Assembly (NCBI GenBank): GCA_001777655.1
Contig: MFER01000005.1
Coordinates: 14,587-47,420 of the forward strand
Source of the DNA: Candidatus Doudnabacteria bacterium RIFCSPHIGHO2_02_FULL_43_13b
GTDB taxonomy: Bacteria; Patescibacteriota; Doudnabacteria; UBA920; O2-02-FULL-48-8
DNA: 32,834 nt
Direction of reading: 5' to 3'
In this document: positions 1,316-24,820 of the stretch, in pieces
Layout: each line of letters opens with the position of its first letter
Position numbering within the stretch: the stretch's first letter is position 1
Translations under genes and position numbers: made by a program
Notes under the pieces: generated by a model
Seen by the model: the letters and a program-made list of their open reading frames with translations, nothing else
What the model was told of the DNA's origin: nothing
Databases searched by the model: none

Positions 1316-1327
1316 ATGTTAGAGTTT

Positions 1328-3235
1328 ATGGCGAAACTAGAAACACAAATTGATCAAATCTATCTCTTGCACCCCGAGGCGAGGAAAACTTCCTTAATTC
1401 TTTATGATGAGGATCTAACAGGCGCTCATCATCTGTTCGTTTTAGCTGAACTGCGGGAATTGAAGAAAAAAACCGATGAGGCTGATTTAAAGCGCATCAC
1501 GGAAATCATTTTGGTTTCCTTTCGCAGCCAAAAACGTTTATCTGCTGAAAATTTATTTGAAGCAGCGTTAAGCCAGATTAATCAAAACTTGGCTGATTTA
1601 GCCCATGAGGGGCGGAAATCTTGGGTGGGAAAATTCTCTTGTTTAATAGCGCTAAAATCCGGGGAAAATATTTTTGTTGCCAACAGCGGACCAACCAGCG
1701 CTTGGCTAAAAAGAAAATCAGAATTGTTAGAAATATTGGGCCTGGAAAAACTGGGAATTCATCCAATCAAAATGTTCCAAAATTTCACCCAAGGAAAAAT
1801 CCTTGGAGACGATAGTATAATTTTAACTACTTCAAATATTTTTAACTATATTTCATTGGAATTGTTCGGGAAAATTCTAAATCAGTTCCCTCCCTCAGAG
1901 GTTTGTCAAAAAATTTCGAAAATCTTACAGGATGCTGCGGGAGCAGATCAGGCTTTCGCTACCTTCTTTTTGTACTTTGGCAAAAAACGAGAATTTGCGC
2001 CGCTTGAAACAATACCGTCTTCGTCATATTTGCCTTCACCAGAAGAATTGGAGCCTGTTGCGCAAACTCCCATGAAGTTTTTTGAAATTTTTTCAAGGAT
2101 CAGATTGCCCAAATTTAATTTTCGTTTACCACAAATTCCCAAATTCAACAAACCCAATATCCCTTTAAACTTCTTCAATAAACTCAGCACGGCGGGTAAA
2201 TTTTTCTTTATTAGTTTTTCTATTTTCCTGATTCTATTTTTAATTAATTTAAGTCTTTACGGCTTTAAACTTCGCAGCCAACGAGTTGCAGAGCGAATCG
2301 AAGCGCAAGTCGAGATTCTTTCTGATGATATCGCTTCCGCCCAATCCGCCTTAATTTATAAAGACGAGGAGCAGGCTTTTAAATTTTTAATCAAGGCCGA
2401 GGATGATTATAAACAACTTTTAGAATTAGCGCCTAATCGTGCTTCTGAATTTAGCGCCAAGTTTGAACAACTCCACAACCAGGTTAACAAAACTAGCGTT
2501 GTTGATAACCCGAGTCTTTATGCTGAATTTAAACGGCATCCGGTTTACCTGGCTAAAAATCCTTCAGGGTTCTTGCTTTCCGGGACCGATTCGAATTCCC
2601 TCACAAACTTCGACGGAACCAATAATGATTATTTTCTCTTAAACAGCCTGGATCAACCGATTACCTCAATCAGCTACTGGCAGAGTGTCGGGGTGGCCGT
2701 ATCATTGAATGATAAAATTTATCGAATCAACGAAGCGCTTAAACAATTTGAACTAATGCTTTCTTTGGGTGGCTCGGAAATTATCCGGATGAAAACCTAT
2801 AACAATATTCTTTATGCATTGGATAAAAAAAATCAACAGTTGCTGCGGGTCGTTGCTTCGAAAGGAAAATTTACAACCCAATTATCTAAAAACGGATTAG
2901 ATGCGACGACTCGTGATTTTGCCATCGATACCAACCGTGACGTTTATTTTTTACAGCCTGACAAAATCGTTAAGGCCAGCGGTATCAATTTTCAAGCCTT
3001 CCCCCTTCCTTTCATGAGCGAGCCAATTACCAATGCCACCCGAATCTTTATCGGCAGCAGTCTCTATATTCTGGAACCAAATAAAAAACGCGTGGTCATT
3101 ATAAGCAAAGCTGGCAATTTAATTAACCAAATTGCTTTTCCCACCACGCAAACCCCGCTCGACCTTTTTGTTGACGAAGCACAAAGGAATCTATTTTTAT
3201 TAGACGATAATCTACTCTATCGAATCACTTTCTAA
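1328..3235 (+). CDS. PP2C-like domain, membrane helix and extracytoplasmic beta-propeller protein
   Basis: A roughly 635-residue protein in three parts. Residues 1-225 resemble a PP2C phosphatase fold: the strands around ENIFVANSGPTSAWL match the usual ANxGDSR region and GDDSIILTTSNIFNYIS matches GDxLLLxSDG, but the acidic metal ligands at these places are missing, so it is probably a pseudo-phosphatase. One membrane helix (FFFISFSIFLILFLINL, about residues 295-315) follows a Pro/Lys/Asn-rich linker. After it come a helical stretch and repeated short beta units of propeller type. The expected topology is cytoplasmic N-terminus and external C-terminus. ATG 1328 was chosen because the -10 box at 1310-1315 excludes the ATG at 1316. 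It converges on the giant gene, with only 2 nt between the stops and no terminator. Confidence 0.6.
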   Translation: MAKLETQIDQIYLLHPEARKTSLILYDEDLTGAHHLFVLAELRELKKKTDEADLKRITEIILVSFRSQKRLSAENLFEAALSQINQNLADLAHEGRKSWVGKFSCLIALKSGENIFVANSGPTSAWLKRKSELLEILGLEKLGIHPIKMFQNFTQGKILGDDSIILTTSNIFNYISLELFGKILNQFPPSEVCQKISKILQDAAGADQAFATFFLYFGKKREFAPLETIPSSSYLPSPEELEPVAQTPMKFFEIFSRIRLPKFNFRLPQIPKFNKPNIPLNFFNKLSTAGKFFFISFSIFLILFLINLSLYGFKLRSQRVAERIEAQVEILSDDIASAQSALIYKDEEQAFKFLIKAEDDYKQLLELAPNRASEFSAKFEQLHNQVNKTSVVDNPSLYAEFKRHPVYLAKNPSGFLLSGTDSNSLTNFDGTNNDYFLLNSLDQPITSISYWQSVGVAVSLNDKIYRINEALKQFELMLSLGGSEIIRMKTYNNILYALDKKNQQLLRVVASKGKFTTQLSKNGLDATTRDFAIDTNRDVYFLQPDKIVKASGINFQAFPLPFMSEPITNATRIFIGSSLYILEPNKKRVVIISKAGNLINQIAFPTTQTPLDLFVDEAQRNLFLLDDNLLYRITF

Positions 3236-3237
3236 GC

Positions 3238-6200
3238 TTACCGCCCTAAATTCTCAACCGAACGAATGCTAAAGTTAACTAGATCCGGATTAATTGTCCG
3301 CAAAATCAGATAAGAACTAAACAATAAAGCCAGACCGATTATCGCGCCCCAAAGGATTTCCACCCCTTTACTTGCTTGCTCGGCGTTGCCGGCGGCAGTC
3401 ATATACATATATCCGCCAAAAATAACCATCAATAATGCCAACAGAGCACCAATTCCCAACGACCAAATGTAAATTTGGTTAATTAATCGCGGAAGACTTG
3501 TCGTATCGGGGGTTGTGGGACTTACAGTGCCCGGCTGGGAACTTGTTGGGCTAATGCTCCGATCTTCAAATATGCTGGAGGTTGACGTTAATACGACGGC
3601 CGCGTAACCTTGGGTGCCTAAAGCCAGGGCACCTTGAGGCGTTACGACATTATTTGGATAGAAAGTTCCATAAGGTTGAACGGATGAATCCGGCGGGGCA
3701 ATCGCCTGGCGGATATTCAGCATAGATCCATCAGTTGTCATCTCCATCAGAATGGATCCTCCATCACTGTCCTCAGTACTGTTAAATATCGTGTTAGTCC
3801 AGGGGTTATAGTTGAGATGCGGGCCGCCGTATCCGCTCGAGTAAGGAAAAATATTTGTATTCAAAATCGCCTGTTCAGGACCGATCGTGTCATTATCATA
3901 AATTACTCTCCCCCATTGGCCAGCCCGATTAGCCGGAGCATTCTCTTGCCAAACTACCAAAGCCCGTGAATCTATCGGGCTATAAACAATCTCCGCGCGG
4001 CCAAAACGATTCTGGCCAAGATTTGGCTGGCTTAAAATTATCGGATCACCAAGCCAAGAATTCGTAGCTACATCATACCGATAAACCCCAACCTTGCAAT
4101 CCTCCAAAGTCGGGTCATTATTATTAATACACCCGACCATCGAAACCATATATTGATTAAGGTTGGAATTTACCGCCAGCGTTGGCTGGCCTTCATATTC
4201 CGAAGAAATCAACTGGGGAACTTTGATGTCCTGGCTGACTGTTCCGTTCGCGTCCACGGTTTTGATGAAATTTTCTCCGCCCGAGGAAAGCATGAAAACG
4301 AACTTTTTGTTTCTTTCGTCATAGTCCAAATCCATCAAAAAAGTATTTTGTTTTCTGATTTCAAAATCAGTTCCCTGCAACGTCCCATCTACTCCAACGA
4401 ACCTCGCGTACACATAACGGTTAAATTTGTCGCCACTTCTCGAATCTTCCCAAGCGACCAAGAATCGATCTTGGTCTGGAGAATACGCAACCATTGGCGC
4501 TTGGGCCCCTTGACCAATGATCGTCATCGGACCGATTTCGACAGCCATCGTATCCGGATTGATTATAAACCCAACTATTCCGCGCAGGTCTTTAATCGGA
4601 TCAAGGACAGCGGTCGAAACTACCAGCACCCGATCGTTACTGGATGAATAAGCGCTATCAAAACCCCAAGTTCCGGCCGCGGGCAGCTCCAGCGGGTTTG
4701 ACGGATCTTGACCCGGCGCGAACGTCTGCGGCGTTCCGTAGAGTAAATTATTAAAACTGCATTCTAACAAAGCCTCGGTATCGGTTGGTAAAGGATCGCA
4801 AATAATCTGGTCTACCGTTTGGCCTAATGAAGTAAAAACAGCTATTCTGACTGTCGGATTCCAAGTTGCCACGACATAATACCCTTGACTGTCAGTTGCC
4901 GCGCGAGGATCATGAGCTCTTTCGGTCGCCCAAATATTAAATTGCGTGGCGGGATCGTTGTTAAATCTACCAACAATGCCATTATCATTTCCTGGAATTA
5001 TGGTTGGGGGTAAGTTATAAGCGTCTGTTGCCACTGTCAGCGGACCAGCAAATGAGGCTGATACTCCCCAGGGCACAGCTGTTAAATCTGTGTCATACAT
5101 TACAACATTGCCACTAGGAAGTATTCTAGTGATTCCTGTTGGAAGACCACTTCTCAACACAACGGGGGTGCCGCCGCCAATTGGCCGACGGAATACTTTT
5201 AAGAAGCCGTCTTGTTTGTTCTGCCAGGCAATGTAACCGTTACCGATCGCCACCGGACGATTCCCGCTGCCTACTACTAGTCCCAAATCCTCAATCGCCC
5301 CAGTATCACTACGCCAAAGCTTGATGCGCTCTGGAATACACGTCGTTGGATCGACCGCGCAGGCGGAATTTTCCCCATCTCTAAAAATCATCCAAAGAAT
5401 ATTATTAAATACGCCGAGTCGTTGGAAGGCCCGGCCAACGCCGGAAAATGGAATCTGTGTAACTCTTTGATCGGTTAAATTCGTGGCAAAATTATATAAA
5501 TTTAACTTGCCATAATCACCCGGAGGCCCTTGCTGAACCGCCACCCATACTCTGCCATTAAAGAACACCGGGTCCGGGAATGTCCCAACACCTAAGTCTT
5601 TGGTGGTAAAAACCGTTGGAGGAGTTGGCACAAGGTTGCTTGTGCTTCCACTAATCAGCGCTCCCTTATACCCGGCCCCTCCCGCTATCCAGGCCCACAT
5701 AGCAAGCCATCGGGCATTAACCGGATCAGCGGCTAAGCCAGGATAATAGCCGGGAATTATTCCATCCCACGCCCCCAAAAAGATTTTCTTATTAGGATCG
5801 ATCGGATAACCATTATCTCCAAGTTCTACGGCATAAAGACTAGCACTGGAGTCAAGTTTACTGAGGAGTAGCGTCGTCTCGGTTCCGCTGTTGTATGCAA
5901 GCTTGACATCCCCCGCAGTCGGTCCAAAACTCTTAGTAAGATCTAGCGGGCCCATACTTCCATCCAAGTTAACAATACGAAAATCAGCCCAACCCGCTCC
6001 CCCTCGCGCCCAAGTGGTTACAAACTTATTTATTTTGGAATTATATACGACATCGGCATCCTGAATATTCCCGGCGGATTGATTATCAATAATATAGAAT
6101 AAACTTCCTAGGAGCGTCATCGTGTTGGAATTGAAACGTCTGCCATATGCTCCATTAATCGTATAGCCAACTGACAAGCAAATTCCATTAGTGGCGCAAG

Positions 6201-8028
6201 CGAGGCCTCGAGGGACTGCGAAATTAACACCGTCTCCGAGTGAAACTCCGGCAGAAACAACACCGGTCATAGAAAAACTGTGAATGTACGGCTGGCCAAT
6301 ACTCCCTGCCGTCAGATTAACAGGAGAACTAACAATAAACTTTGTACCACTCCAGACTAATACCGCCTTTTCCGAGGTATACCATGAATCCCTAACATCT
6401 ACGATCTTACTCCGATTACCGATCAAAGGAGATCCGCCGGCCTGATACCTGACTAGCCTTCCATATTTTGGATTAGTTACCTGGTCCCCGACAACATAAG
6501 TAACAAGAAACGTCGGGTCGGTGGCCGGTCCTCCAAAGGCGACATTCGGCCAAGCCGTGTTGGGTATGTTTTCAAGAGCAATCTTAAATGGATTACCGAT
6601 AGGAACTCCGTCTTTATTGAAAAACCAACCCGAGTCTCCCGACACGGCAAGATATACCTGGTTAACAGTATCGAAGGCTATCTTCACTAAACCTGCTCCA
6701 GGCCACCATATATTAGAATTTATGACGCTAATACCGCCCGCTGGAGTTGGTGTGGGAGTGGGACTTATACTAGGAGCCGGGCAATTCGTGCCGCAACTAA
6801 TACCAGCCACAAACCGGGTCAGTTGATAATCCATGCCTGAGATGGCGGCAAAGCTGCCATCTTGGGTATTAGCGTTAATAGTCGGGGTAAAATTGCCAAA
6901 TGCGCCACTCGTAAAGGTAGTGCCGCTGGCCACCTCTCGGCCGTTTGCATCCAGCACCACATAGGTGTTGCCGATGTCGTTCCAGTCTTGGCCGATTAGA
7001 CCATACAGGTTTGATTTAGAATTATAGGAAAGGCTGGGACGGCCGATTCCAGTTTTAAGAGTAAACATTTGGGTGGTGCTACCCGCTGCGCTACAATTAT
7101 TAATAAACCGGCCCTGTACTGATAAAGCATAGCCCGCATTCCAGCTGACTAAATATTTATTGGCCGCCGGATTATAAGCAATGCTGGTATCGGTCGGAGT
7201 CGCATTGGGGTTTTGCCTATTCGAATATAGAACCGCTTCCGCTCCAAGCGCGCCGGTCAGCGCGTCTACTCGCCTGACCACAACGTTCCCGGCGTTTCTT
7301 TGATCATAGGCCACGCAGTATTCATTCCGAGCTTCATTGATGGCTAAGGAAGGTGACCAACTAGCTAAGAACCCAGAACCTCCTGATGTTACTTTAATTC
7401 GCGGCCCCGGAACACCGGATTGGTCCACCGTGATCAAACTAACGTTAGGTGGAGAAGGCAGTCGAGTCTCCCAAACAAATACAAATTTTTTATTCGTCCC
7501 ATCGTAGCGTAGAATTGAATTAGTATACAAATAAGCTTCTTCGACTCCCGCAACTGTAAAAATCTCAAACTTATCTCCTGGGAAAGTTCCGTCAGGATTA
7601 ACAAATCGGCCATAAATAATTGGATCACCTGCGTCACCGAGTGGAAAGCCAATCCAAACCACCAAATATTGATTTATGTCGGCAGCAAATACAGTTTTCG
7701 GGGCGATTTGTTGCGTGACGCCGCCTTGGTTTGGCATAATTTCAAATTGATTCATGACAGGCTGTCCGTCATTGCCCATGATCCGGCCGTAAATCGCGTC
7801 GCGGCCGCCGTCGCTTGTGACCAACCAATTATTCTGGAACGGATTATATGCCAAACTCCCTTCCCATCCAAGAGTTGCGACGACGAAGGATGTGGGCCCG
7901 GCTGGAGTTGGTGGGGATTGAGCTTGAACCGTCCTGTCAAAAATTGACATCGAAAACAACAAGACGATTACAACAACCGTTGAACCAAATTTTAAATAAA
8001 AATTCGACCGATTATCGGTAGCCGGCAT
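3238..8028 (-). CDS. Giant secreted repeat protein (1596 aa) with VirB2/TrbC-like two-helix tail
   Basis: The N-terminus is a signal peptide or anchor (hydrophobic residues 14-30, then VQAQSPP). The body is built of repeated beta units with the pattern aYNPxxNxYLVxW...G..I.GRxVxxDG (for example VAYSPDQDRFLVAWEDSR), typical of beta-propeller blades. A PTPTPTP linker near residue 420 splits it into a smaller and a larger block. A Ser/Thr/Pro-rich stalk near residues 1485-1515 precedes two membrane helices. The tail, with FGGYMYMTAAGNAEQASKG between the helices, matches the VirB2/TrbC-like pilin pattern frequent in candidate-phylum genomes. AGGAG lies 7 nt before the ATG, and the start overlaps the preceding gene by 17 nt. 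It is the last gene of the surface operon starting near 9620. A role in adhesion or surface assembly is inference. Confidence 0.75.
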   Translation of the reverse strand: MPATDNRSNFYLKFGSTVVVIVLLFSMSIFDRTVQAQSPPTPAGPTSFVVATLGWEGSLAYNPFQNNWLVTSDGGRDAIYGRIMGNDGQPVMNQFEIMPNQGGVTQQIAPKTVFAADINQYLVVWIGFPLGDAGDPIIYGRFVNPDGTFPGDKFEIFTVAGVEEAYLYTNSILRYDGTNKKFVFVWETRLPSPPNVSLITVDQSGVPGPRIKVTSGGSGFLASWSPSLAINEARNEYCVAYDQRNAGNVVVRRVDALTGALGAEAVLYSNRQNPNATPTDTSIAYNPAANKYLVSWNAGYALSVQGRFINNCSAAGSTTQMFTLKTGIGRPSLSYNSKSNLYGLIGQDWNDIGNTYVVLDANGREVASGTTFTSGAFGNFTPTINANTQDGSFAAISGMDYQLTRFVAGISCGTNCPAPSISPTPTPTPAGGISVINSNIWWPGAGLVKIAFDTVNQVYLAVSGDSGWFFNKDGVPIGNPFKIALENIPNTAWPNVAFGGPATDPTFLVTYVVGDQVTNPKYGRLVRYQAGGSPLIGNRSKIVDVRDSWYTSEKAVLVWSGTKFIVSSPVNLTAGSIGQPYIHSFSMTGVVSAGVSLGDGVNFAVPRGLACATNGICLSVGYTINGAYGRRFNSNTMTLLGSLFYIIDNQSAGNIQDADVVYNSKINKFVTTWARGGAGWADFRIVNLDGSMGPLDLTKSFGPTAGDVKLAYNSGTETTLLLSKLDSSASLYAVELGDNGYPIDPNKKIFLGAWDGIIPGYYPGLAADPVNARWLAMWAWIAGGAGYKGALISGSTSNLVPTPPTVFTTKDLGVGTFPDPVFFNGRVWVAVQQGPPGDYGKLNLYNFATNLTDQRVTQIPFSGVGRAFQRLGVFNNILWMIFRDGENSACAVDPTTCIPERIKLWRSDTGAIEDLGLVVGSGNRPVAIGNGYIAWQNKQDGFLKVFRRPIGGGTPVVLRSGLPTGITRILPSGNVVMYDTDLTAVPWGVSASFAGPLTVATDAYNLPPTIIPGNDNGIVGRFNNDPATQFNIWATERAHDPRAATDSQGYYVVATWNPTVRIAVFTSLGQTVDQIICDPLPTDTEALLECSFNNLLYGTPQTFAPGQDPSNPLELPAAGTWGFDSAYSSSNDRVLVVSTAVLDPIKDLRGIVGFIINPDTMAVEIGPMTIIGQGAQAPMVAYSPDQDRFLVAWEDSRSGDKFNRYVYARFVGVDGTLQGTDFEIRKQNTFLMDLDYDERNKKFVFMLSSGGENFIKTVDANGTVSQDIKVPQLISSEYEGQPTLAVNSNLNQYMVSMVGCINNNDPTLEDCKVGVYRYDVATNSWLGDPIILSQPNLGQNRFGRAEIVYSPIDSRALVVWQENAPANRAGQWGRVIYDNDTIGPEQAILNTNIFPYSSGYGGPHLNYNPWTNTIFNSTEDSDGGSILMEMTTDGSMLNIRQAIAPPDSSVQPYGTFYPNNVVTPQGALALGTQGYAAVVLTSTSSIFEDRSISPTSSQPGTVSPTTPDTTSLPRLINQIYIWSLGIGALLALLMVIFGGYMYMTAAGNAEQASKGVEILWGAIIGLALLFSSYLILRTINPDLVNFSIRSVENLGR

Positions 8029-8530
8029 AACATGCTCCTAAATATTTATTAACCTCTCCATTGAAGATAGCCAAACAGTAATCCTGACCTGTGATCATAT
8101 CCGTGATTGTTGTCCATTGCGTTTTCATTATAGCTTGATTTTTCGCCTCATCCAAAGCAAGAAAAGGGTCAACGACTGCTTCGCCAGCTACCAGGGGTTT
8201 AGAATTTAAGGTTAGGGCGAGTGCAAATTTAGCGTAAGTTGATTGCAGCATATAACCGATTGCTTGATCACTTTCTTTATCCTGTAAAAATCCTGCAAGC
8301 GTGGTTGCCGCTTGTGCATAAAATTCTTCTACGCCTTCAAATACCTGACCAAATTCTTGTAAAAAAGGATTGTCTGCCCAAGTTTGTTGCCATGCAATTG
8401 ATACCTGTTTCGTAATTATTGTTTTAAATTCTAAAATTTCTTGGCTCTTGCTTGGCTGCAATACGAAAAGCGTCGCTGCTAAAACGAAAATACTGATGGC
8501 ATTAAATAGGAAGATGGCCTTCGAATGCAT
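8012..8530 (-). CDS. Single-pass membrane-anchored protein (172 aa), unknown
   Basis: An N-terminal membrane helix (residues 5-24, FLFNAISIFVLAATLFVLQ) anchors a mainly helical external domain. The first helices are rich in Trp, Gln and Phe (SIAWQQTWADNPFLQEFGQ). Two Cys (in DYCLA and GACYA near the C-terminus) could form a disulphide. It follows the gene at 8542 after 11 nt and overlaps the giant gene by 17 nt, so translation of the two is probably coupled. No family is recognised. The size, topology and place match the two upstream proteins, suggesting three parts of one surface system. Confidence 0.6.
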   Translation of the reverse strand: MHSKAIFLFNAISIFVLAATLFVLQPSKSQEILEFKTIITKQVSIAWQQTWADNPFLQEFGQVFEGVEEFYAQAATTLAGFLQDKESDQAIGYMLQSTYAKFALALTLNSKPLVAGEAVVDPFLALDEAKNQAIMKTQWTTITDMITGQDYCLAIFNGEVNKYLGACYAGYR

Positions 8531-8541
8531 GAAAAATTAAA

Positions 8542-8976
8542 TTAGCGTTCAATCGAAATTCCAGAAATCTTGGGCGTCCAATCAACCATGCTGCTAGCAT
8601 CCAAAAGTGCAATCATCTGCACGCTTGCTTGGTCAAAAAAACTGCTCATTCCCAAATAGACATTGGGAATTTCCCGGACGGATCCCGAAAGATCCAAAAG
8701 CGACATCATCTCGTCCGTAGCCAGTTGGTAGAAAAGATTGATACTATCCACCAAATCAATAACTGGAGTCAGAGTTGAGACAACATCTGATGATGTTTGC
8801 TTTGCTGCCATTGATACATCAAAAATTGATGTTGCTTCCGTAAGGTTGCTATTGCTTGCCGAACCAAATACCATTCCTTCCACTAACAATACCAAGCCTA
8901 AAGTTAAAGCCAAGTAGTGGATTGGATAATTTTTTGATTTTCTGTTTATTTTTTTATTTTGTTTCTTTTTTTGCAT
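8542..8976 (-). CDS. Single-pass membrane-anchored protein (about 144 aa), unknown
   Basis: A very basic N-terminus (MQKKKQNKKINRKSK) precedes one membrane helix (YLALTLGLVLLVEGMVFG) and a helical external domain of about 105 residues. Just after the helix region the motif IFDVSMAAKQ recalls IFDLHDQAQQQ at the same place in the upstream protein at 9123-9596, so the two may be distant paralogues. ATG 8976 was chosen; a TTG at 8988 is in frame but lies at the edge of the inverted-repeat element (8988-9093). Second gene of the surface operon. Confidence 0.55.
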   Translation of the reverse strand: MQKKKQNKKINRKSKNYPIHYLALTLGLVLLVEGMVFGSASNSNLTEATSIFDVSMAAKQTSSDVVSTLTPVIDLVDSINLFYQLATDEMMSLLDLSGSVREIPNVYLGMSSFFDQASVQMIALLDASSMVDWTPKISGISIER

Positions 8977-8987
8977 ATTTTTTCTCA

Positions 8988-9093
8988 ATCCCGTTAGAAA
9001 TAGCGATTAGTTAATAAATTATTATTTTTTATGATCAAGCAGATTAAATATTATTTCCACCGGTGCCAACCAACGTAAAATTTCTAACGGGAT
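8988..9093. repeat. Repeat element with 14-bp terminal inverted repeats ATCCCGTTAGAAAT, copy 1
   Basis: The element begins ATCCCGTTAGAAAT and ends ATTTCTAACGGGAT, perfect inverted ends 106 nt apart. It fills most of the gap between two genes of the surface operon. The internal stretch TTTATTAACTAATC (minus strand) is shared with the copy at 24715-24820, so the relation goes beyond the ends. No ORF lies inside, as in a MITE-like element. Confidence 0.7.
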
Positions 9094-9122
9094 AAATCAC
9101 GATCGACCAAAAATTCGTGAAA

Positions 9123-9596
9123 TTAATTAATTAATTGGTATTTTAAATAATTTAATGTTTGCGGCGGAGCATAACTATAGGGCAGCACTAAATGCTCTTC
9201 TGAAAAATGTTGGCCGCAACCTCCGGAAGTTGTAGAAGCCGATAAATCAATCAATGCCCCCAAAACTCTTCCTCGTGTTGTAAACGTATCATCAGGCAAA
9301 ACCGCGACTTGAGTAAAAGCTACGTAAAACCGGTCCAAAAAAATTTCTGACGACTCAAACATCAATTGAATCACTGCTAACTGCTGTTGTGCTTGATCAT
9401 GCAGATCGAAGATTGGTACTGCTTTTACCAAGTCCGCCTGGTTCTCAAAAGATAATTGCGAAAAACCCATAGCCATGATAAGGCTTAGGCCAATCACAAT
9501 AGTTATGACCACTGACGCGTCAAAGGAATTCAGATCCTCATAATCTGTTTTCATGCCTTTTTTAGGTTGGATTTTTGGTTTTTGTGTCTGCGCCAC
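9123..9596 (-). CDS. Single-pass membrane-anchored protein (157 aa), unknown
   Basis: First gene of the surface operon. A basic N-terminus (KPKIQPKKG) is followed by one membrane helix (SVVITIVIGLSLIMAMGFSQL, about residues 29-48) and a helical external domain with a GGCGQ turn near residue 126. The start shown is GTG 9596; an in-frame ATG at 9554 (MKTDYEDLN) is the main alternative, and neither has a strong ribosome site. A perfect-consensus promoter at 9627-9655 drives it. No family is recognised. The post-helix motif IFDLHDQAQQQ is similar to that of the next gene. Confidence 0.6.
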   Translation of the reverse strand: MAQTQKPKIQPKKGMKTDYEDLNSFDASVVITIVIGLSLIMAMGFSQLSFENQADLVKAVPIFDLHDQAQQQLAVIQLMFESSEIFLDRFYVAFTQVAVLPDDTFTTRGRVLGALIDLSASTTSGGCGQHFSEEHLVLPYSYAPPQTLNYLKYQLIN

Positions 9597-9626
9597 TTTG
9601 GGGCGAATTGAAATTTTCTTATCTTT

Positions 9627-9655
9627 ATTATAGCAAATTTTTGTGCTTCTGTCAA
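9627..9655 (-). promoter_or_regulatory. Perfect-consensus promoter TTGACA-17-TATAAT with extended -10
   Basis: On the minus strand TTGACA (9655-9650), 17 nt, then TGC-TATAAT (9632-9627). This is the strongest promoter in the window and implies high expression of the surface operon at 3238-9596. Confidence 0.85.
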
Positions 9656-9703
9656 CTCCACGCTCCAGTCGGAGTTCCGACTCCCGCCTTGGCGGGGCGT
9701 CGG

Positions 9704-9730
9704 AAAAAAACCCCGGGATAGTATCCGGGG
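9704..9730 (-). terminator. Intrinsic terminator after rplL
   Basis: On the minus strand a GC-rich hairpin, CCCCGGATA-CT-ATCCCGGGG, is followed by seven T. It lies about 90 nt after the rplL stop and before the surface-operon promoter. Small palindromes rich in GTCGGAG and GGCGGG lie just beyond it. Confidence 0.75.
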
Positions 9731-9748
9731 CCTGGCCCCTTTCATCTC

Positions 9749-9807
9749 GTCATTCTGAACTTGATTCAGAATCCAAAAACTGGATCCCGCATCAAGTGCG
9801 GGATGAC
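9749..9807. repeat. REP-like palindromic repeat (GTCATTCTGAA type)
   Basis: Two linked palindromes: TTCTGAACTTGATTCAGAA and ATCCCGCATCAAGTGCGGGAT, bounded by GTCAT and ATGAC. This is the widespread bacterial repeat often seen between genes. It sits directly behind rplL and merges with the palindrome at 9805-9830. Confidence 0.7.
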
Positions 9808-9830
9808 TTTGAAATAGTTATTTCAAAGTC
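9805..9830. repeat. Perfect 26-nt palindrome spanning the rplL stop codon
   Basis: GACTTTGAAATA and TATTTCAAAGTC are perfect 12-bp arms around a 2-nt centre. The right arm encodes the last residues of L7/L12 and its stop, and the left arm continues into the REP-like repeat. A duplication made when the repeat arrived is one explanation. Confidence 0.6.
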
Positions 9831-10195
9831 ACCTTGGCGCCCGCTTCTTCTAATTTTTTCTTCAGCTCTTCGGCTTCAGCTTTCGCGATATTTTCCTTAA
9901 TCGGTTTAGGAGCCGCGTCTACCAAATCTTTGGCTTCCTTCAAACCCTTACCAGTTACTTCTCTGACAACCTTGATAACGTTGATCTTATTTGCTCCTGC
10001 TTCGGAGAGTTCCACCGTAAACTCTGTCTTTTCTTCTGTTCCGACGCCCGGCGTAGCCGTGGTCGGAACAACTCCGACTGCAAACGTCGGAGCTGCTGAT
10101 ACGCCAAATTTTTCTTCCAAAACTTTAACTAACTCGGATAATTCCAAAGCGGTAAGTTTTTCAATTTCTGAAACTATATTATCGAAATTCGCCAT
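9818..10195 (-). CDS. rplL: 50S ribosomal protein L7/L12
   Basis: The stalk protein of the large subunit, which recruits translation GTPases. Its 125 residues show the full family layout: an N-terminal dimerisation region ([19 protein letters not shown]), an Ala/Pro/Thr/Val-rich hinge (about residues 33-55) and the C-terminal domain with [20 protein letters not shown] and the closing [16 protein letters not shown] strong AAGGAGAA ribosome site lies just before the ATG. It follows rplJ by 12 nt, the usual order. Its stop codon lies in a perfect palindrome (9805-9830). Confidence 0.97.
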
Positions 10196-24701: not shown

Positions 24702-24714
24702 TTCGTGGCAATGA

Positions 24715-24820
24715 ATCCCGTTAGAAATAGTCATTAGCGACTATTATTACTAACTAATACCCTAGCGGGATAAAATATAAATAAGCGAATTTATTAACTA
24801 ATCAAAATTTCTAACGGGAT
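24715..24820. repeat. Repeat element with 14-bp inverted ends ATCCCGTTAGAAAT, copy 3
   Basis: Perfect ends ATCCCGTTAGAAAT and ATTTCTAACGGGAT, 106 nt in all, the same length as the copy at 8988-9093. It shares TTTATTAACTAATC near one end with that copy. An inner partial end, CCCTAGCGGGAT, gives an alternative shorter hairpin. Its last two bases are the A and T of the rpmE start codon. Confidence 0.7.

Follow-up and report, generated by a model that had tools for sequence, protein, structure and literature searches.

A giant secreted protein with a VirB2-like pilin tail at a surface locus of Candidatus Doudnabacteria

Candidatus Doudnabacteria are tiny bacteria that are probably host-dependent, which raises the question of how such bacteria hold on to their hosts and gain access to them. 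The closest described systems are the T4SS of Patescibacteria, whose VirB2-like pilins make up the family T4SS_pilin (PF18895) and include tandem arrays; in the sections of the survey that treat them, no PrgB-type adhesin was found (PMC12102498), and the phylum has no known T4SS adhesin. The T4SS is essential, as is the pilin array, in Southlakia epibionticum, the only strain tested according to the part of a review that covers it (PMC12857230). The searched passages of the two articles (PMC12102498, PMC12857230) contain no mention of pilins fused to large ectodomains, and in the literature searched, as far as its relevant passages go, no pilus has been shown for the Doudnabacteria group.

We analysed a stretch of 32,834 nucleotides (the window; G000:C5:14587-47420) from a genome of 776,513 bases, the nearest named relatives of which carry the title Candidatus Doudnabacteria in every record. 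The family sample comprised 14 genomes (G000-G013), ten of which (G000-G009) are at least 86% complete and were counted as near-complete.

The giant protein and its pilin tail

Four genes in the window are transcribed in the same direction behind a promoter, and the last of them encodes a giant secreted repeat protein that ends in a pilin domain (Table 1). The ORF coordinates of the four genes and the position of the promoter, all on the minus strand, agree with those of a preliminary description of this DNA when compared with the ORF listing. Hydropathy analysis of the giant revealed one N-terminal segment (12-30) and two C-terminal segments (1519-1537 and 1552-1570). Its repeats follow the pattern PxVAYNxxxNxFLVVWEDxR...IYGRxV..DGT..G..F.I, which is also present in proteins of many phyla, and with their FLVVWED-YGR-DGT-G-F-I core they fit the blades of a putative beta-propeller, for which blades of about 45-50 residues served as the yardstick. 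A sequence search of solved structures gave no useful match for the repeat domain, of which residues 41-397 form a second copy, and a Pfam search at E <= 1 returned only PF18895 and a sub-threshold DUF7015.

Table 1 Features of the surface locus, with positions in the window and the evidence for each
Feature	Position	Strand	Evidence or detail
Neighbouring convergent gene product, 639 aa, with one TM between N-terminal half and propeller-like C-terminal half	1316..3235	+	TM 296-314
Giant secreted repeat protein, 1596 aa, C-terminal T4SS_pilin domain	3238..8028	-	ORF, PF18895
T4SS_pilin (VirB2-like) tail of giant, aa 1509-1577, two TM helices around loop	3298..3504	-	PF18895, 39.2 bits
Conserved propeller-like domain of giant, aa 1092-1479	3592..4755	-	in all six giants; profile i-E 2e-176
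First propeller-like domain of giant, aa 41-397	6838..7908	-	conserved-domain profile match, i-E 1e-31
Signal peptide of giant, aa 1-36, ends VQA	7921..8028	-	hydrophobic segment 12-30; cleavage by inspection
small3, single-pass, 172 aa	8012..8530	-	one N-terminal hydrophobic segment
small2, single-pass, 148 aa	8542..8988	-	one TM at 26-44
106-bp dispersed element, between small1 and small2	8988..9093	.	14-bp terminal inverted repeats
small1, single-pass, 157 aa	9123..9596	-	one TM at 27-45
Promoter TTGACA-17-TATAAT of operon	9627..9655	-	12/12 match

Relatives of the giant were found in five other genomes. The six proteins have only their last ~520 residues in common, consisting of the repeat domain, the tail and, between the two, a proline-rich linker, with 33-43% identity to the window's protein; the exception is G006, where the similarity extends back to about residue 806. 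Their N-terminal parts are variable, with almost nothing present in G007 and G009, and GH5 (Cellulase) domains were detected above cut-off in G005 and G006. The GH5 domains, the variability of the N-terminal domains and a GH-like domain (by inspection) on the gat-linked pilin of G021, a genome of another family, would all suit a giant that is mainly a carbohydrate-active protein, surface-bound or secreted, which binds or degrades host or environmental polysaccharides, with the pilin domain helping the protein to be exported or brought to the T4SS and not serving adhesion. In the window's giant, however, only propeller-like repeats were found, no part of it being recognised as a catalytic domain, and we consider such a function unlikely to be the main one.

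The tail had been described as VirB2/TrbC-like, with a GNxExxxKG loop between two helices. The loop reads GNAEQASKG and is indeed flanked by two helices. The family assignment stands for T4SS_pilin, where the window's tail scores 39.2 bits against a cut-off of 26.6 and all six giants match, but not for the TrbC/VIRB2 family (PF04956), which gave no match at E <= 1. In NCBIfam, the tail was matched only below cut-off, by a family of pilin-like conjugal proteins of Mycoplasma (20.4 bits against a cut-off of 40).

Like PF18895 pilins, the giant has two TM helices around a short charged loop and an N-terminal signal, as judged by hydropathy, and like the systems in which these pilins occur, the window's genome also has a pilin array and a T4SS core, with a VirB4-type ATPase (P-loop_TraG, 87 bits) and PrgI (31 bits) on contig C1. 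The giant is encoded on contig C5 and is thus not close to virB4; in the part of the survey concerned, such proximity was seen in 1135 of 1948 assemblies, so that it is not required for T4SS_pilin (PMC12102498). Unlike in the array pilins, the pilin domain forms the last 5% of a 1596-residue protein encoded away from both virB4 and the array, and it belongs to a separate, gat-linked subclass.

The hairpin layout of the tail is also that of the conjugative pilins of PF04956, to which the stand-alone gat-linked pilin has a sub-threshold match (20.7 bits against a cut-off of 27.9). Those pilins are small (~10 kDa after processing), unlike the giant, which itself lacks a match. Only in its proposed role, as an adhesive protein on a VirB2 pilus, does the giant resemble the VirB5-type pilus-tip adhesins as outlined in the corresponding passages of the review (PMC12857230). 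VirB5, unlike the giant, is a separate protein that is not fused to a pilin, and the giant showed no sequence match to the VirB5 family (Pfam, E <= 1).

The fusion of a pilin module to a giant protein had been called unusual, which proved half right, as PF18895 on large ectodomains recurs across the phylum. PF18895 was found in 56 of the 59 genomes sampled across the phylum and, among the best-scoring matches listed, at least 12 lie in frames of at least 430 residues, in ten genomes from ten families, the window's genome included. Because the domain sits in such frames in ten sampled families, its fusion to a large ectodomain is, on the evidence of these matches, a recurring architecture. Examples in the comparison set carry PKD or lytic-transglycosylase domains. 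The PKD protein of G052 (L058:3814-8472) and the SLT protein of G039 (L059:6573-7766) resemble the giant in combining a pilin domain with a large extracellular domain, and differ from it in that their pilin domain lies near the N-terminus. In the G039 protein, T4SS_pilin (26.1 bits, cut-off 26.6) adjoins the SLT domain, which makes it in effect a VirB2-VirB1-like fusion. As far as the literature searched shows, the C-terminal position of the pilin in the giant and its genome-by-genome match to a gat-linked pilin are new.

Pairing of the tail with a gat-linked pilin

The window's genome contains eight PF18895 matches, namely six in the array on contig C13, the giant, and a 132-residue protein encoded on C5 between gatA and gatB. 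All 14 family genomes have this gat-linked pilin at the corresponding site of the tRNA amidotransferase operon, flanked by gatA and gatB (L036:6852-7250 and orthologues). In another family of the order, a pilin gene was found beside gat genes in G017, G021, G025 and G029, of which G017 and G029 showed both gatA and gatB. At its N-terminus, the G021 protein (L062:1397-2884) has a domain judged GH-like by inspection, and TAA and TAG codons interrupt its reading frame.

Each of the six giant tails has its best match in the gat-linked pilin of its own genome. In the short 70-residue block on which the comparison rests, the identities are 72.9, 74.3, 78.6, 88.6, 90.0 and 90.0%, the window's tail being one of the two at 90%, and the next-best matches reach 65.7-78.6%. 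The similarity ends sharply at this block, and outside it the nucleotide identity drops towards background. When giants and pilins were permuted, 1 of the 720 pairings reached the observed identity sum, which is the true pairing itself. In a maximum-likelihood (ML) tree, the giant tail and pilin of one genome come out as a pair in five of the six cases (bootstrap 94-100), while the tree does not resolve the pairing in G005, and an AU test rejects one clade of giant tails (p=6.8e-14).

The array pilins served as a control. They group by orthologue, nine orthologues from nine genomes together, in a tree of few columns and long branches of which only the starred forks were used, and the clade of gat-linked pilins and tails is separate from them (100/100). 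This control rules out general convergence in membrane composition as the cause of the pairing.

At fourfold sites, the agreement between tail and pilin does not exceed chance in G005, G006, G007 and G009, but does so in G000 (11/24, 6.5 expected) and G002 (16/26, 8.5 expected). The chance-level agreement in four of the six genomes indicates that the amino acids were conserved long after the last homogenisation. The pairing means that the tails have time and again been homogenised with the local gat-linked pilin or derived anew from it, with the amino acids remaining alike after synonymous drift. Pairing by genome would also arise if each giant had been fused recently and independently to its local pilin, instead of descending from one ancestral fusion that was kept matched. 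Against this, all six giants have the conserved repeat domain and Pro-rich linker at the same position ahead of the tail, and synonymous sites at chance in four genomes mean that the events were not recent. We regard a set of independent recent fusions as highly improbable.

Proposed co-assembly and its main rival

The simplest functional reason for the pairing would be co-assembly of the tail with the gat-linked pilin. In the mechanism that we propose, the giant would be exported by Sec, its variable N-terminal domains and conserved repeat domain would stay outside the cell, and its C-terminal pilin hairpin (out-in-out) would sit in the membrane. There, the tail would co-assemble with the gat-linked pilin, a stand-alone protein of its own subclass, and a pilus or pilin ring would bear the ectodomain at its base or tip. 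Recurrent homogenisation, by gene conversion or by repeated re-fusion, would maintain the match between tail and pilin within each genome. To this picture of the giant as a pilin-anchored accessory surface adhesin or enzyme, co-assembling with the gat-linked pilin and kept compatible with it by recurrent homogenisation, we give an even chance, and the protein might serve in host attachment. The GH5-like domains of other giants and the S74-chaperone fibre-like neighbours of the locus in G001 were counted in favour of co-assembly, and the location of the virB4 locus and the giant on different contigs, the shortness of the 70-residue block and the behaviour of G005 in the tree were counted against it. 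Because the gat-linked pilin persists in genomes without a giant, the giant may depend on the pilin and not the reverse.

The main rival to co-assembly is neutral conversion plus ordinary purifying selection, since homogenisation, with each copy afterwards under such selection, would produce the same traces even if the two proteins were not physically coupled. The tail would then be a mere ready-made membrane anchor, gene conversion a by-product of similarity, and the giant would never enter pilin assembly. Consistent with this, two-helix hairpins are able to anchor any ectodomain, PF18895 occurs elsewhere in fusions with PKD, SLT and other domains, gene conversion can be neutral where genes are similar, and an excess of synonymous identity is kept in G000 and G002, as conversion predicts. 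A single TM helix would serve equally well as an anchor, however, as it does in the three small proteins, and amino acids are still matched after synonymous saturation in four genomes. Homogenisation is moreover seen in five or six tails and not in the array pilins, although the latter are more diverged and so convert less easily. A tail that acts purely as an anchor is in our estimation a serious contender, if on the doubtful side.

Returning to co-assembly, a large ectodomain on a VirB2-like pilin, matched in each genome to a partner pilin, would be a concrete candidate for a T4SS adhesin, and matched versus mismatched pairs of tail and pilin make the adhesin question testable. Tentatively, the VirB2-like pilins of Patescibacteria could form a general display scaffold for large adhesins and for wall- or glycan-active enzymes, each fused to a pilin domain that recurrent homogenisation would hold compatible with a dedicated stand-alone pilin, the gene for which would in Doudnabacteria be built into the gatCAB operon. 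This wider scheme is possible, but we would not yet lean towards it.

The surface locus and its conservation

The promoter had been described as the only perfect one of the window, and within bases 1-32000 it is the sole 12/12 match, with TG preceding the -10 element; four sites score at least 11/12 when both strands of these bases are counted. In eight of nine family genomes, the 300 bases 5' of the operon contain a site that scores at least 11/12, always with a perfect TATAAT and a spacer of 17 bases, and, set against the four scores of at least 11/12 in bases 1-32000, this conservation makes the promoter more than a chance match. A palindromic intergenic repeat (GTCATCCCGCACTTGATGCGGGATCC...), with partial matches elsewhere in the genome, lies 5' of the promoter (window 9690-9831).

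Within the operon, small1 starts with GTG, with an ATG 14 codons further in. The start of the giant overlaps small3 by 17 bases, its ATG being preceded by an AGGAGC ribosome-binding site, and similar overlaps of small3 and giant were found in G002, G007 and G009. The element between small1 and small2 is a MITE-like dispersed repeat. Its terminal inverted repeats (CCCGTTAGAAAT) are 100% complementary; 16 further matches, several of them 103-106 bp long, are present in its own genome, and the element is also seen at about 24714-24820 of the window. In six family genomes, the small genes are preceded by a gene for a protein of 73-94 residues, which by inspection looks like a helix-turn-helix DNA-binding protein. 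It is absent at this locus in the window's genome, where the best match elsewhere is weak (26% identity).

Hydropathy supports the description of the three small proteins as single-pass, with one N-terminal hydrophobic segment each, and none of them matched a Pfam family above cut-off. Two of them had been thought to share a Q-rich IFD motif. The motif is present in the first two proteins; its Q-richness is not conserved, and profile comparison relates small1 and small2 only weakly, at 64% probability in the IFD region. The relation between small2 and small3, which share an FYxQA motif, is clearer (95.8% probability). An extra 278-residue protein of G005 contains the IFD/LFD motif five times.

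All ten near-complete family genomes contain small2 and small3, which stay together in every one, and nine contain small1 (absent in G004). The giant occurs in only six (G000, G002, G005, G006, G007 and G009). The operon is conserved in relatives, but the linkage of all four genes is not strict. Because the small genes occur in nine or ten of the ten genomes and the giant in six, the four genes amount to a core surface locus to which the giant is an accessory. The small proteins belong to the core of this locus, and may chaperone or hold the ectodomain.

Where the giant is absent, small3 directly abuts the convergent gene (G001, G004 and G008), or the giant's place is taken by a 93-residue ORF and a protein of 563 residues that lacks a pilin tail (G003). 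In the window, the stop codon of the convergent gene lies 2 bases from that of the giant; in G007, two ORFs, purN- and purD-like by inspection (purine synthesis), lie between the two genes. The convergent membrane protein is present in all ten near-complete family genomes and in 36 of the 40 genomes of the order, and in the order outside the family it was the only product of the locus found. Weak matches to DUF5128, a 6-bladed propeller, were obtained in 4/6, no family scored above a cut-off, and the sequence search of solved structures gave nothing useful. A PP2C-like assignment of its N-terminal half was dropped, the PF00481 match occurring in one member only (E=0.15).

Alignment of the C-terminal module of small3 gave the pattern TGxxYCVAIYNxEVNKYLGxC, which resembles a two-cysteine stretch near the end of two fibre-like proteins of G001. 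These proteins, of 1270 and 723 aa, have S74 endosialidase-chaperone domains and are encoded just upstream of the small genes (L164:6330-12310), and one of them contains a collagen-like stretch.
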